A stretch of 34,681 nt of DNA from a virus. Positions 17,555 to 30,587 of the stretch are shown piece after piece (the stretch's first letter is position 1; every line of letters begins with the position of its first letter). The DNA lies in the IMG/VR virus record IMGVR_UViG_3300008117_000369, positions 1 to 34,681 of that record, one strand, 5' to 3'. Both the position numbers and the translations under genes were made by a program. Under the pieces are notes generated by a model. That model was not told the DNA's origin and did not search any database. It saw nothing but the letters and a program-made list of their open reading frames with translations.

Positions 17555-17604
17555 TTTCGTCTCCTTCTATCGCTTCTGTCCGGCACTGCGCCGTCCATGT
17601 GTGT

Positions 17605-17633
17605 ACTGTACCTGCGCCTAATCTTGTCGTCAA
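17605..17633 (-). promoter_or_regulatory. Leftward early promoter
   Basis: On the minus strand TTGACG (17633-17628) is followed after exactly 17 bases by TACAGT (17610-17605). This is a good sigma70 match (5/6 and 4/6 with ideal spacing). Transcription would start near 17598 and run into the LPD29-like gene. Confidence 0.75.
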
Positions 17634-17643
17634 GCACTTCTTG
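17631..17643. promoter_or_regulatory. Operator candidate O1 (CAAG-N5-CTTG)
   Basis: The palindrome CAAGCACTTCTTG overlaps the -35 box of the leftward promoter. The same CAAG-N5-CTTG pattern recurs at 17693-17705; both copies are followed by TA. The size suits a Cro-like HTH dimer. Confidence 0.55.
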
Positions 17644-17682
17644 TAAATAAATTAGTATGCTCCGGTGCTATGCGTATTTAGG

Positions 17683-17711
17683 TTGCCAGTTGCAAGATTG
17701 TCTTGTATTCT
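17683..17711 (+). promoter_or_regulatory. Rightward promoter of the regulator/replication operon
   Basis: TTGCCA (17683-17688) and TATTCT (17706-17711) are separated by 17 bases. The -10 box ends only two bases before the ATG at 17714, so a transcript would start around 17718, giving a leaderless message if translation begins at the second ATG, 17720. Confidence 0.55.
17693..17705. promoter_or_regulatory. Operator candidate O2 (CAAG-N5-CTTG)
   Basis: The palindrome CAAGATTGTCTTG fills the spacer between the -35 and -10 boxes of the rightward promoter. Its centre lies 62 bases (about six helical turns) from the centre of O1, so bound dimers would face the same side of the DNA. Confidence 0.55.
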
Positions 17712-17713
17712 AG

Positions 17714-17935
17714 ATGACCATGAAAAAACCTAATCTATCGCCGCAGCACGCGGCAGTCATTCACGCCGTAGCCTTGGCGGGAGGGCAGTCAGCCCTTGCC
17801 AAGAAACTAGGGATCAAGCCCCAGGCAGTCCAGCAGTGGGTTGTATCCGGTAGGGTACCGCCTCTGAGGGTTATTGCCGTCGAGGCAGCAACTGGTGTAT
17901 CACGCAAGGCTCTTAGGCCGGATATCTACCCATGA
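17714..17935 (+). CDS. Cro/YdaS-like transcriptional regulator
   Basis: A 73-residue protein (71 from the second ATG at 17720). Residues about 14-56 contain VALAGGQSALAKKLGIKPQAVQQW, a helix-turn-helix of the Cro/YdaS family, followed by the typical PPLRVIAVEAATGVSRKALRPDIYP ending. Role in the family: represses early promoters by binding short palindromes. The gene stands at the start of the rightward operon and its promoter carries a CAAG-N5-CTTG site; the divergent promoter has the same site. It ends in an ATGA overlap with the primase-helicase gene. No partner CI-like repressor is seen in the window. Confidence 0.8.
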   Translation: MTMKKPNLSPQHAAVIHAVALAGGQSALAKKLGIKPQAVQQWVVSGRVPPLRVIAVEAATGVSRKALRPDIYP

Positions 17936-19980
17936 AGCCAGAACTCACCGCCATCGTGCCAGTCGAGCGTGTCCTCGAGCTGGCGAAGAAGTACCCAGTA
18001 TTCCCGTGCAGGAGGAAAGATGAAACAGACCAAGAAGGGCGCACGCTTAAAGCCAAAAGCCCGCTCACCCGAAACGGATTCAAAGACGCCACGCAAGACG
18101 AGGCGCAGATTCGTCGATTCTGGGCCAGTCACCCTGACGCACTCGTTGGGGTTCCAACCGGCAGCCGCACCGGACTTGCCGTCATCGACTTCGATACCAG
18201 CAAGGCTGGCGCGGCTGCTCAGGACTGGCTTGCAGAAAATCAGGCGGCTCTGGTAAGCACCCGAGTCCACCAGACCGGCGGCGGTAGCGGCGGCAGACAT
18301 TACCTGTTCTCGACACCTTCGGGTGTGAAAATTCGCGGCGGCGCGTCGGTTACGCTCGGCAAGGTGCGCCGCGACGGCCTCGACATCCGCGCCGAGGGCG
18401 GGTACATCATCTGGTGGCCGCTGCACTATGGGCAGAGCGGCCCGATGGGCGACATCAAGTCGCTACCGGCCGGGCTGATCGACGAGCGGCGCATGGATCT
18501 CGAGCTGCCCGCGGAGCTGGCGGCAAAACTACCGCCGAAGCCTGGCACCAGCGGGGACTTCCAGCGCGACCTACCGCGGATTACCGAGGCGCTGTCATTC
18601 ATCGACCCGGCGCCATACGATTCGTGGCTGATGGCAGGGATGGCGCTGCACTACGCCAGTGGCGGAGCCGATGACGGACTAGAATTGTGGGACGCCTGGT
18701 CATCCGGCGGCATCACCGGCGTGCTGCCCGCGTCGTACGCAGGGCGCGCAGACATCGAGTACCGCTGGCAGTCGTTCCACCTTGACCGCGGCGGCGGTGT
18801 TACGCTCGGTAGCCTCTTTAACGCGGCCAAGGCTGGCGGCTGGGTGTCTGTGCCAGAGGCGGTGAGGATCGGGCCACCGAAGCGGGAGGAGCCGCCAATG
18901 CAGTACGACGATGTGCCAGAGGCGCAGGGAATGATTCGGCACGCTGAGCCAGAGCTGCCGGCGCAAAGTGTGACACCGGGTGGCATAGTCACAGGCCGTC
19001 GTCTCATCCTGCGGCCCATCGGCGAGATCGTGACCGAGCGGCGCGAGGCGACGTGGCTGATTCACAACGTACTCGAGGCCAACGTGCTGGCGGTGCTGGC
19101 GGGGCCGCGTGCCAGCTTTAAGTCGTTTATCGCCTTGGATTGGGCGATGCGCATTGCGGCGGCTGATAATCCTGTGGTCATCCTGTCGGGCGAGGGTGCC
19201 GGTTTGGGCCGTCGCGCTGAAGCATGGATGCAGGAGCACGGCAAGGGGCGCGACCTAAACGAACTGCGGCTCATGGCGCTGGAGTCCGTTGCCAACCTAA
19301 ACGCCGAGACTGAGATGGCGATGCTCCAGCAGTCCATTGATGAGGCCGGCATACGACCGGCGCTCGTGATCGTGGACACGTTCAGCAAGTTTAGCGCCGG
19401 GCTGGACGAGAACAGCAACCAGGAGGTTGCCGAGTATCTCTCGAAGCTCACCATCGGGCTGCGCGAGCGGTACACGGCGACGGTGCTGCTCGTGGCGCAC
19501 AGCGGGCACGGCGATGCCAAGCGGCCGCGGGGCGCCAGCGCCTTGATGGCAAACCCTGACGCCGAGTACATCGTGGAACGGCCCGATGCGCAGGCTATGG
19601 TGGTGGCGGTAAGCCGCGAGCGATTCAAGGACACGGCCAGCCTGTCTCCACTTGGATACGAGGCGGTGGAGGTGCCGCTTGGGCGGATGGACAAGTACGG
19701 TGAGCCGGTCAAGTCTCTGGTGATGAGGGAGGCGACGGCGCCGGGTAAGCCGGCGGTGGCTCACTCGCCCCAGGGGAAGGCACAGCGGACGATCCTTGCG
19801 GCGCTCAGGGAGCGCCAGAAGCGGTCTGATACGCCGCTGGTCTGGACGGTCGAGGAGATGCGCCAGATAGGACGGGAGTGTGGGGTGGCGAGGCAGTCTG
19901 TCCACGATGCGGTCGAAAAGTTGATGCTGTCACCCTTCCTGAAGGCCAGTGTGGGCGGCAGTATGCTGGGGGAACCGTGA
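17932..19980 (+). CDS. Primase-helicase (Prim-Pol, PriCT, RecA-like helicase)
   Basis: A 682-residue replication protein. Residues about 8-190 are a bifunctional primase-polymerase domain: KSPLTRNGFKDAT, then the metal motif AVIDFD (Asp86, Asp88) and GGRHYLF with His123. Residues about 218-305 (SFIDPAPYDSWLMAGMALH, YRWQSFH, TLGSLFNAAKAGGW) are a PriCT-2 type linker. Residues about 375-560 are a hexameric RecA-like ATPase: Walker A GPRASFKS (391-398, Lys397), Walker B LVIVDTF (Asp482) and VAHSGH. The last 65 residues (TILAALRERQK through CGVARQSVHDAVEKLM) form a winged-helix-like DNA-binding domain. It probably primes and unwinds at the repeat cluster that begins right after its stop. Confidence 0.85.
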   Translation: MKPELTAIVPVERVLELAKKYPVFPCRRKDETDQEGRTLKAKSPLTRNGFKDATQDEAQIRRFWASHPDALVGVPTGSRTGLAVIDFDTSKAGAAAQDWLAENQAALVSTRVHQTGGGSGGRHYLFSTPSGVKIRGGASVTLGKVRRDGLDIRAEGGYIIWWPLHYGQSGPMGDIKSLPAGLIDERRMDLELPAELAAKLPPKPGTSGDFQRDLPRITEALSFIDPAPYDSWLMAGMALHYASGGADDGLELWDAWSSGGITGVLPASYAGRADIEYRWQSFHLDRGGGVTLGSLFNAAKAGGWVSVPEAVRIGPPKREEPPMQYDDVPEAQGMIRHAEPELPAQSVTPGGIVTGRRLILRPIGEIVTERREATWLIHNVLEANVLAVLAGPRASFKSFIALDWAMRIAAADNPVVILSGEGAGLGRRAEAWMQEHGKGRDLNELRLMALESVANLNAETEMAMLQQSIDEAGIRPALVIVDTFSKFSAGLDENSNQEVAEYLSKLTIGLRERYTATVLLVAHSGHGDAKRPRGASALMANPDAEYIVERPDAQAMVVAVSRERFKDTASLSPLGYEAVEVPLGRMDKYGEPVKSLVMREATAPGKPAVAHSPQGKAQRTILAALRERQKRSDTPLVWTVEEMRQIGRECGVARQSVHDAVEKLMLSPFLKASVGGSMLGEP

Positions 19981-20092
19981 TGTCCGAAAATGTCCGAAAA
20001 TGTCCGAATCGGACAATTTCGGCGGGTCAATTATGTCCGAAAATGTCCGAGAGTCCTTTAGGACTCGGACATTCGGACATGACCTTCGGACA
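19981..20092. repeat. Iteron-like cluster, nine copies of TGTCCGA (candidate replication origin)
   Basis: The heptamer TGTCCGA occurs forward at 19981, 19991, 20001, 20034 and 20044 and inverted (TCGGACA) at 20009, 20065, 20073 and 20086. The first three and the 20034/20044 pair are spaced exactly 10 bases, about one helical turn. 20001-20015 is a perfect palindrome TGTCCGAATCGGACA, and 20051-20066 is a hairpin (GAGTCC, loop TTTA, GGACTC) flanked by inverted copies. The cluster fills almost all of the 121-base gap after the primase-helicase gene. Such phased repeats are typical of initiator-binding sites. Confidence 0.75.
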
Positions 20093-20101
20093 TTGGAGTG
20101 G

Positions 20102-20317
20102 ATGGTGAGATACAAGGAAGATAAGCCTAAAGGTGTTGCGATGGCGCAACATGTTGCAGATACGCCACTAGCCAAGAGGATGCTCGAACAGATGGGCAAA
20201 GATGACTATCAGTTGATGAAGACATTTCAGCAGCACTTTGGTGCAAGGTTAGTCCACTACTCTGACCAACAGGGCGAGGTGGGCAAGCGACCGGGGTGGG
20301 CCAATGACGCAGGGTAA
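20102..20317 (+). CDS. Small unknown protein
   Basis: A 71-residue protein from ATG 20102, chosen because it follows GGAGTGG and the reading frame upstream runs through the repeat cluster. Features: MVRYKEDKPKGVAMAQHVAD, then LAKRMLEQMGKDDYQLMKTF, QQHFGARLVHYSDQ and a basic end. Mostly helical and charged. No family recognised. It sits between the repeat cluster and other small replication-region genes and overlaps the next one by 14 bases. Confidence 0.5.
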   Translation: MVRYKEDKPKGVAMAQHVADTPLAKRMLEQMGKDDYQLMKTFQQHFGARLVHYSDQQGEVGKRPGWANDAG

Positions 20318-20950: not shown

Positions 20951-21274
20951 ATGGGAAAGCGACAAAGAGAACGCGGAGCCGAGACCGAACGTGAGGTATG
21001 CGAAAAGATCGCGGCCGGTACGGGCTGGGTAGTCAAGCGTGAACTAGGGCAGGCCAGAGACGGCGGCTGCGACATTCGCCTGGGGCAGTTCGTGCTTGAG
21101 GTAAAGCGCCGCAAGTCGATTGCCGTTTACGAGTGGGTTGACCAGGCAAAGGCTGCATGTGCGCCTTATGAGATCCCGGTCGTCGTTTGCCGCGGAGATA
21201 AGCGAGAGTTCCTCGTGATCCAGCGCCTTGACGACTGGATGAAGATGGCTAAGCACGAGTTACCGGACAGATGA
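20951..21274 (+). CDS. Hjc-like PD-(D/E)XK endonuclease (Holliday-junction resolvase type)
   Basis: A 107-residue nuclease. The order RERGAETEREVCEKIAA (Glu15 as first catalytic acid), then GQARDGGCDIRLG (Asp41), FVLEVKRRK (Glu50, Lys52) and EWVDQAKAAC (Gln66) is that of archaeal-type Hjc and related small resolvases. Expected role: cutting branched DNA before packaging. Full length for a small single-domain enzyme. It ends in ATGA, coupled to the zinc-ribbon gene. Confidence 0.7.
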   Translation: MGKRQRERGAETEREVCEKIAAGTGWVVKRELGQARDGGCDIRLGQFVLEVKRRKSIAVYEWVDQAKAACAPYEIPVVVCRGDKREFLVIQRLDDWMKMAKHELPDR

Positions 21275-21570
21275 AATGCCCAAAGTGCTCGAAACCGAGC
21301 GAGGTCGTGAAGGTCTACCAGTTCCCGACCGAGGCGCGGCGACGGAGAGAGTGTACGAGCTGCGGTCTCAGATTCTCCACGAGCGAGCGCGTCTGGAGGC
21401 GAGTCTATGCCGAAGAGACCAAGGCCAAGAGCCAAGTGCGTCTCACGAAGAAGGTGGATCATTCAGAGCGGCAGAAAAAGACTTATAGCAACTTCGACGT
21501 CGTGGCATTGGAAGGCTACGATCTAGACTACGAAGACGTATCAACCTATGTGCATGCGAGTGACGACTGA
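21271..21570 (+). CDS. Zinc-ribbon protein (NrdR N-terminal-like)
   Basis: A 99-residue protein. Cys3/Cys6 (MKCPKC) and Cys28/Cys31 (ECTSCGLRFSTSER) form a zinc ribbon like the N-terminal domain of the ribonucleotide-reductase regulator NrdR, but the NrdR ATP-cone domain is missing. The C-terminal half is acidic and ends DLDYEDVSTYVHASDD. Phages often carry such short ribbons next to terminase genes; a regulatory or packaging role is possible. Its last base is the first base of the small terminase ATG. Confidence 0.65.
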   Translation: MKCPKCSKPSEVVKVYQFPTEARRRRECTSCGLRFSTSERVWRRVYAEETKAKSQVRLTKKVDHSERQKKTYSNFDVVALEGYDLDYEDVSTYVHASDD

Positions 21571-22079
21571 TGGCAGGGACACCAATTAAGCGGGCGCGAC
21601 AAGAGAAGGCTCTAGCCATTCTTTCCAAGCCAGACTTCTGGGAGCAACTCTGGGAGCATTTGGCAGAGGGCAACACGCTGCGATCCTTTGTAAGCGGCAG
21701 CGACGTGCCATACGGCGTGGTGTGGCGGAAGATGCAATCCGATCCTGCCTTGATGGAACGGTACGAGATCGTGCGAAACGCCAGAGCGTTGGCGAACGCT
21801 GAGCGCATCGAGGCGCTGGCTGAGAAGGTAGAGACGGAGCAGATTGACCCAAACGCGGCGAAGGTTGCGATGGGCGCGAGGCAGTGGCTCGCTGAACGAA
21901 TGGATCCAAAACGCTGGGGAAATAAGATCCAGCAGGATGTGCAGATCACTGACACGACGCAACTGCACCTGCAAGCCGTGCGCGATTTAATGCGCACTGT
22001 GAGCGTCGTAGAACCAGTAAAACTTGACGTTGACACTGACGTGTCAACGGCGCCGGCCGCGCGCGATTCAATAGTGTAA
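21570..22079 (+). CDS. terS: Terminase small subunit
   Basis: A 169-residue protein. It begins with a basic N-terminus (GTPIKRARQEKALAIL), continues with a DNA-binding helical region (FWEQLWEHLAEGNTLRSFVS, VPYGVVWRKMQSDPALMERY) and an oligomerisation helix (AERIEALAEKVETEQIDPNA, ARQWLAERMDPKRWGNK), and ends with a flexible acidic tail. The WLAERMDPKRWG motif is typical of small terminase proteins. Role: recognises the packaging site and recruits TerL. The 3' end overlaps a perfect 8-bp-arm palindrome at 22029-22048. Confidence 0.75.
   Translation: MAGTPIKRARQEKALAILSKPDFWEQLWEHLAEGNTLRSFVSGSDVPYGVVWRKMQSDPALMERYEIVRNARALANAERIEALAEKVETEQIDPNAAKVAMGARQWLAERMDPKRWGNKIQQDVQITDTTQLHLQAVRDLMRTVSVVEPVKLDVDTDVSTAPAARDSIV
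22029..22048. repeat. Perfect inverted repeat inside the 3' end of terS
   Basis: GTTGACAC, a 4-base TGAC loop, and GTGTCAAC are exact complements. It lies in the coding sequence for the acidic TerS tail, 24 bases before the next palindrome. Confidence 0.7.
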
Positions 22080-29540: not shown

Positions 29541-30587
29541 ATGAGCAGTTCATTTCGCGGACAAACACAATATGCGCAGTCTCCCATGGGATACGGCGGC
29601 GGCGGGTACGGAGACCCCATGAGCGTAGACTTTGGCGGTTATGGCGCCCCCATGGGCCGGCCAAGGGGCGGCCAAATGGGCCAGCCAAGGGGCGGCTCAA
29701 TGGGCGGAGGCTACGGCCAGTCATACGCAAGCCCGTTTGATAGTCCATTTGGTAACCCGCTTGCAAGCCAATTCGGTGGATACGGCACCACCTTTGGTGG
29801 CATGGGGATGGGCGGCGGTGGCATGGGTGGCGGCTACGGCCAGCAGCAGCCTTTGATGCCGCAGTACCAGCCGACCGTAAACGATCTATTTTCGCAATAT
29901 TTTTCGCAGCAATATTACGGCGGCCAGGCGTTTAATCCGTTTGCGGCCACGTCGCTCTTTGGCGGTGGTTACGGTGGCGGATATGGCGGCGGTTACGGCG
30001 GAGGCGGACGCGGAGCGGGCAATCGCATGCGTGATCGTCGCAAGATGTTTGAAGACTTGTTTGCCCCAGAGAAAACTGATTTTGCGCAGCCTGAGCCAAC
30101 ACCGGCGCGGCAGCCGCAAGTGCAGCCGCAGGTGCAACCGCAGGTACAGCCGCAAGTGCAGCCGCAGGTACAGCCGCAGGCGCAGACCGGAACTGGCGGC
30201 GGCGGAAGCCGTACTTTTACTGGGCCAAACGCTTTGATAGATTCATGGAACGCGGCACAAGAGGCTCGCCGTACTTACGTTGCGCCTACGCCACCTGTTA
30301 GCGACATTCAATATGCAGGCGGCACTCCCGGCTTTTACGATAAGGGCGGCGCAGGCTATTCGCCGGGGATTATGCCGAGTGGGCCTGAAAGGCCGTTCAT
30401 GCCGACGATTAGTGACCCAGACTACCAAGGAGTCGCTGGGCCGTCTGTGATGCCTGAAGTTCGTGAGCCTCAACCGCTCATAGAGTTTCAGATGCAGCCG
30501 TCTCTCGCACCGGCTCCTGCCCCGGCTGCTTCTCCGTTTTTGCAGCCGGGTCGAAGTGCAATCCGTCGTAGCTTTGGAAACAGGTGA
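29541..30587 (+). CDS. Gly/Tyr/Gln-rich low-complexity protein
   Basis: A 348-residue protein that is almost wholly low complexity. Residues 1-170 are rich in Gly, Tyr, Met, Gln and Phe (YGGGGYGDP, GGMGMGGGGMGGGYG, GGGYGGGYGGGYGGGG). A short charged helix follows (RMRDRRKMFEDLFAPEKTDF), then five VQPQ units (residues 194-213), and a Pro/Gln-rich C-terminus. Expected to be disordered. It lies between the decoration-like protein and a run of small basic proteins upstream of the scaffold. No enzyme motif. I know of no family function; a virion glue or assembly role is possible. Confidence 0.6.
   Translation: MSSSFRGQTQYAQSPMGYGGGGYGDPMSVDFGGYGAPMGRPRGGQMGQPRGGSMGGGYGQSYASPFDSPFGNPLASQFGGYGTTFGGMGMGGGGMGGGYGQQQPLMPQYQPTVNDLFSQYFSQQYYGGQAFNPFAATSLFGGGYGGGYGGGYGGGGRGAGNRMRDRRKMFEDLFAPEKTDFAQPEPTPARQPQVQPQVQPQVQPQVQPQVQPQAQTGTGGGGSRTFTGPNALIDSWNAAQEARRTYVAPTPPVSDIQYAGGTPGFYDKGGAGYSPGIMPSGPERPFMPTISDPDYQGVAGPSVMPEVREPQPLIEFQMQPSLAPAPAPAASPFLQPGRSAIRRSFGNR
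30111..30185 (+). repeat. Tandem 12-bp repeat coding for (VQPQ)5
   Basis: Five 12-base units of the type GTGCAGCCGCAG at 30120-30179, preceded by CAGCCGCAA and followed by GCGCAG. The units differ mainly at synonymous positions (GTG/GTA, CAG/CAA, CCG), so the protein repeat is kept while the DNA drifts. Confidence 0.8.

Follow-up and report, generated by a model that had tools for sequence, protein, structure and literature searches.

A TGTCCGA repeat array behind a Prim-Pol/RepA-like helicase gene is a probable tailed-phage replication origin

Results

Layout of the locus

Analysis of a 34.7 kb virus record (the window, analyzed over all of its 34,681 nucleotides) revealed phage head genes (portal, scaffold and terminases), a gene for a 682-aa primase-helicase, and an array of short repeats that spans 112 bp and starts at the stop codon of that gene (Table 1). 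Directly upstream of the primase-helicase gene is a Cro-like gene (17714–17935), and the small terminase gene lies further along the window at 21570–22079. The small ORF behind the array (ADTPLAKRM...) is conserved in many relatives, and a longer ORF that encloses it matched nothing in PHROG or Pfam. An ORF with an NrdR-like Zn-ribbon N-terminal domain (21271–21570) lies between the genes for the small terminase and a RusA-like resolvase. An imperfect tandem repeat, CAGCCGCAGGT, at 30061–30180 encodes a PQVQPQVQ run in a Gly/Pro-rich protein (29541–30587).

Table 1. Positions of the repeat array, the primase-helicase gene and their parts in the window.
Feature	Position	Strand	Description or basis
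Primase-helicase gene, putative initiator	17932–19980	+	682 aa; Pfam, RSF1010 RepA match, AlphaFold2
C-terminal winged-helix domain, probable repeat reader	19768–19977	+	Residues 613–682; AlphaFold2, structural neighbors
Predicted recognition helix	19891–19926	+	Residues 654–665; AlphaFold2 secondary structure, alignment columns, independent pairs
Left block of array	19981–20015		TGTCCGA forward at 19981–19987, 19991–19997 and 20001–20007 (10-bp steps), inverted at 20009–20015
Forward pair left of dyad	20034–20050	+	Copies at 20034–20040 and 20044–20050, 10 bp apart
Hairpin/dyad, conserved center of array	20044–20071		Inverted copy pair around core GAGTCC-TTTA-GGAC(TC)
Right block of array	20065–20092	-	Inverted copies at 20065–20071, 20073–20079 and 20086–20092
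Small ORF	20105–20317	+	70 aa, GTG start; directly behind array

An exact search of the window agreed with the original prediction that TGTCCGA occurs nine times in the array, with five copies forward and four inverted; three further copies are scattered over the other 34.6 kb. Chance is excluded as the source of this cluster, as in 100 simulated Markov-1 genomes a 7-mer had at most 4 non-overlapping copies in 112 bp, versus the 9 at this site. A phasing of 10 bases had also been predicted, and this holds for the forward copies, while the inverted copies are spaced by 8 and 13 bases. By eye, a degenerate inverted copy, TTTCGGCGG, can be seen between the two halves of the array at about 20018–20026. 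The segment at 20001–20015, which had been described as a perfect 15-base palindrome, has a single central base flanked by arms of 7 bases each and is not a palindrome in the strict sense. Only in a few relatives do the arms match exactly, and the arm pair is therefore not a conserved part of the array. GC skew had no clear origin-type switch at 20 kb, and that check was uninformative.

The predicted hairpin flanked by inverted copies was borne out by comparison with relatives, as its position is kept in most close relatives and pairing in its core is preserved through compensatory changes. In relatives, the center of the array is an inverted pair of units around CTTTAG, CTATAG or CTTAAG. The inner arms of the dyad covary in what is by far the best register, with 8 compensatory cells, a value that none of 500 shuffles attained, and the folding energy of the array DNA is very low (z -9). 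Because pairing of the outer arms is offset by two bases from that of the inner arms, a cruciform could form but need not, and the hairpin is indistinguishable here from a simple dyad of candidate binding sites.

The primase-helicase and its C-terminal domain

Pfam matches in the primase-helicase comprise a Prim-Pol domain (PF09250, residues 18–164), PriCT_2 (residues 217–299) and a RecA-fold, RepA-like AAA_25 domain (residues 363–528). With the family profile, the RSF1010 RepA structure (1g8y) was the sole solved relative (E 3.5e-6, residues 379–543), and by this sequence match the helicase is of the RepA family of the RSF1010 replicon. The last 70 residues had no family match, and the C-terminal domain had no significant match to the PDB by sequence. 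AlphaFold2 predicted this domain as three helices and a wing, with a pLDDT of about 90 in the folded part; the model of the whole protein was poor outside its single domains (pTM 0.40). The top structural neighbors of the domain are winged helices, among them that of MCM8 (Z 8.4, rmsd 2.3, 67 aligned) and those of ORC and Cdc6. The fold and its neighbors thus agree with the prediction that the helicase ends in a winged-helix-like domain, and neighbors at this distance (Z 8.4 at best) point to a fold rather than to any closer family that could be named.

Arrays behind related helicase genes

Searches with the helicase returned several hundred loci, which were reduced to 143 distinct helicase hits whose downstream DNA could be read. 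With an array defined as 4 or more copies of a word in 200 bp, 104 of 119 loci had an array behind the homologous gene, versus 13 of 2187 stretches drawn at random from these loci. A common architecture, with tandem repeats followed by an inverted pair around an AT-centered dyad of the CTTTAG type, recurs in about 60 distinct viral loci. Members of the close family have one layout and differ in their word (TGTCCGA, TGTCCGG, TGTTGGA, GGTCAAA or GGTACGA), with the copies of an array changing in concert between groups. More distant members have a similar layout with other words, e.g., TGTCCAC, TGTCCCA, TGCCCCA and TGATACG. Among named or cultured phages, the same layout was observed in Idiomarinaceae phage 1N2-2 (CGGTACA, eight copies) and Alteromonas phage XX1924 (TGAACCA, eight copies), and, with other words, in Salicola CGphi29, Roseobacter CRP-406 and MW202867; in the deposited records of these phages, no repeat or origin feature is annotated at these positions. 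The array is not universal, since Caulobacter GB2A (L444), Gordonia MossRose (L449) and MW202475 (L451) have related helicases with no array directly behind them.

One group of loci (L055, L056 and L266–L289) has a related Prim-Pol half, with about 80% DNA identity to that of locus L027, an unrelated helicase half, and an array of the word CCCCAGT. This group is a natural domain chimera of two initiator families.

Covariation of the repeat word with the C-terminal domain

We counted changes of repeat word on trees of 62 distinct loci, for which the five words require a minimum of 4 changes. The tree of the C-terminal domain attained that minimum, and did so even when the recognition helix was removed. 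Counts rose with distance upstream, to 6 for the linker, 11 for the helicase and 21 for the Prim-Pol domain. Behind the array, there were 9 changes for the small ORF (four words, minimum 3) and 12 for the next DNA. As the tree of the small ORF follows the word less well, we place that ORF outside the module. The remaining neighbors gave 16 changes (small terminase; shuffles 23), 17 (RusA) and 21 (NrdR-like), and on the Cro-like tree the word was distributed nearly at random (22 changes; shuffles 27).

Residues 654–656 and 659, at the start of the predicted recognition helix, differ among the word classes and vary little or not at all within each: RQS/D with TGTCCGA (the window), RSS/E with TGTCCGG, RHS/D with TGTTGGA, KQS/K with GGTCAAA, and KTT/A with GGTACGA. 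In 13 of 13 phylogenetically independent pairs the word and residues 654–656 switched together (p 0.00024), and control columns had no joint switch with the word in such pairs. A remote pair had the same pattern (KQS with GGTCAAA in L061, RTT with GTTCGGT in L395). The recognition-helix code was read within the close family, the alignments of the distant families being too uncertain. Overall, these comparisons strongly support the idea that the C-terminal domain sets iteron specificity.

Genome scans for the words were also conducted. A tandem scan for TGTTGGA, intended to find more RHS members, identified only the known L030 contig. Dense GTACGAA arrays were observed almost only behind KTT helicases already in our set and, for this reason, that scan adds no independent test. 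A scan with TGTCCGAAAATGTCCGA also hit enterobacterial prophages that have a trio of copies next to ssrA; these hits resemble integrase arm sites and were rejected as unrelated. In L069, L073, L086, L088 and many similar enterobacterial prophage loci, an apparent ssrA 3' end is closely followed by three TGTCCGA copies (TGTCCGAAAATGTCCGAAATNTGTCCGA), which adjoin an integrase-like reading frame; these probably serve as arm sites for an integrase and have nothing to do with the helicase arrays.

Natural swaps of domain and array

Comparison of near-identical loci revealed natural exchanges. L199 and L077 mostly have 95–100% DNA identity in the 2 kb before and the 1 kb behind, versus 75–85% across the domain plus array, and 14 of their 19 amino-acid differences fall within the last 66 residues. 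The reciprocal case is that of L199 and L194, which have domain and array in common and bodies that differ at >60 sites. In L186 and L077 the helicase, domain and array have been exchanged as one block between near-identical flanks. Some joint exchange of domain and array is expected from linkage alone, given their neighboring positions. However, adjacency would not explain why the copies of an array change in step with the helix that probably reads them, and the fit to the word is poorer for the flank just behind the array. Initiator domain and array very probably form one exchangeable specificity cassette.

Discussion

Comparison with known initiator systems

Several known systems have elements of this arrangement. 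In SaPI Rep and SCC Cch2, an initiator helicase binds short iterons directly behind its own gene (PMC7581432), and in SaPI Rep the iterons are read by the C-terminal domain (PMC7581432, citing Ubeda 2007). The iterons described here are likewise directly downstream of the helicase gene. Unlike SaPI and SCC, however, our system is a tailed-phage element with a fused Prim-Pol and a dyad with a CTTTAG core, and the AAA_25 and RSF1010 RepA matches of the helicase suggest a family other than that of SaPI Rep/Cch2. The alpha protein of the phage satellite P4 combines primase, helicase and a winged helix that binds origin repeats in one protein (PMC4234260). The protein here has the same three elements, the winged helix being predicted, but its primase is a Prim-Pol (PF09250) where that of P4 alpha is of the Toprim/DnaG type, and its helicase is RepA-like.

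RSF1010 has a helicase homologous in sequence to the one studied here, and iterons beside a hairpin. Its iterons are longer than our 7-bp words, and its ssi hairpins are recognized by the primase; the phage arrays have a conserved hairpin/dyad. RepA, RepB' and RepC of RSF1010 are three separate proteins (PMC4234260); primase, helicase and probable DNA-binding domain are in a single ORF here, unlike the separate RepB' primase and RepC iteron binder. The pRN1 protein ORF904 and phage BIP-1 have Prim-Pol, a C-terminal winged helix and a stem-loop directly behind the gene, with PriCT_2 in BIP-1 (PMC4234260). Both have an SF3 helicase, with neither iterons nor specific binding reported. Prim-Pol, winged helix and dyad are all present in our system, which differs from the pRN1 type by its RepA-like helicase and its iterons. 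Phage NrS-1 also has a Prim-Pol with a helicase domain (SF3) and a defined recognition word, TTTGGTTA, which occurs twice in its genome and is used by the primase on a single-stranded template (PMC7102993, PMC8718748). In PLE of Vibrio cholerae, the DNA-binding domain of RepA and the origin covary and swap as a module, and experiments demonstrated replication with the cognate partner only (PMC8263062). PLE differs in having a RepA_N domain, no helicase/primase fusion and three repeats of about 30 bp; nevertheless, by analogy it is the best precedent for reading covariation as that of a Rep/origin pair.

A model for initiation and its alternatives

We consider it highly likely, from these comparisons, that the array is the replication origin of the phage and that its initiator is the product of the gene immediately before it. 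It is very probable that the helicase binds the iterons behind its gene and so specifies its own origin, and this idea is well supported because the word tracks the C-terminal domain, the helix residues and the exchange in the near-identical pair. In the most economical model, converging iterons and initiator rings flank an AT-centered dyad. The C-terminal winged helix would bind each TGTCCGA unit through its recognition helix (R654, Q655, S656 and D659), and units facing each other across the CTTTAG dyad would position helicase rings on both sides. The helicase would then melt the center of the dyad, and the N-terminal Prim-Pol would make the first primer there, on the strand or hairpin so exposed. 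The proposed binding has strong support from the covariation, the natural swaps and the independent pairs, as the original prediction that the helicase C-terminus could bind the repeats would have it. Melting, ring loading, priming and origin use we infer from SaPI, SCC, P4, RSF1010 and PLE, and the direction of the forks is likewise a deduction. As for the claim that this is a self-contained origin, the array, its position and the covariation back it, and the use as an origin is suggested by the conserved anatomy and by the PLE, SaPI and SCC precedents. Those precedents rest on other helicase families, which counts against an origin, as does the finding that ORF904 of pRN1, with Prim-Pol and winged helix, had no specific in vitro binding to its downstream origin (PMC4234260).

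Covariation supports at most a partnership of protein and DNA and not its purpose, and plasmid iterons also serve copy control. The C-terminal domain could thus bind the array as a regulatory site (autoregulation, handcuffing or copy control) with initiation elsewhere. We consider this unlikely, given that the array is behind the gene in a region with no promoter-like match, the AT-centered dyad is conserved, the window has no second iteron cluster, and the SaPI, SCC and PLE precedents are origins (PMC7581432, PMC8263062).

That the array is an operator or attachment site of another protein (the Cro-like repressor, the small terminase or an integrase) is very unlikely, although it draws some support from the ssrA-side TGTCCGA tandems of unrelated prophages, with their resemblance to integrase arm sites. 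Small terminases and repressors do bind repeats near their own genes. However, the fit of the word to the terminase tree is poor and that to the Cro-like tree nearly random, contrary to the alternative of an unrelated repressor raised with the original prediction; moreover, the divergent promoter region (17555–17713) has no exact TGTCCGA nearby, the scanned ORFs had no integrase-family match, and a search of the window for tRNA and tmRNA genes had no hits. Least probable of all is a transcription terminator, RNA element or mobile repeat element with no protein partner, as might be proposed from the strong hairpin behind the gene and its very low folding energy. There is no T-run or terminator match at the array, all Rfam families scored far below threshold, and an RNA hairpin would leave unexplained why copies outside it change word together with the winged helix.

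Significance of the arrays

The arrangement had been described as one not recognized from known phages. Its function is in fact known from satellites and islands, and its layout is present, unannotated, in cultured phages. Both helicase-read downstream iterons (SaPI, SCC) and the fusion of primase, helicase and winged helix acting on repeats (P4) are already known. By membership, however, the present system belongs to neither, because its primase is a Prim-Pol and its helicase is RepA-like. A full-text search of the open-access literature returned no description of Prim-Pol/RepA-like iteron origins in tailed phages, and this origin class seems to be widespread and undescribed in them.

We think it reasonably likely that these loci represent a large group of tailed-phage origins not described so far, each used by one Prim-Pol/RepA-like helicase that starts replication at iterons located behind its gene. 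Word and recognition helix would then form a readable, swappable specificity code (e.g., RQS-TGTCCGA, RSS-TGTCCGG, RHS-TGTTGGA, KQS-GGTCAAA, KTT-GGTACGA) of mutually orthogonal origins, probably diversified by competition or interference among co-infecting replicons. Most tailed-phage origins are unmapped; here a candidate origin can be read from sequence and found by rule behind a gene, whether or not the phage has been cultured, and a small number of residues that switch naturally among close relatives can be named as the likely source of its specificity. As a consequence, initiator-origin recognition, helicase loading at an AT-centered dyad and origin incompatibility become directly testable, and the gene plus about 120 bp may offer a set of orthogonal minimal replicons.
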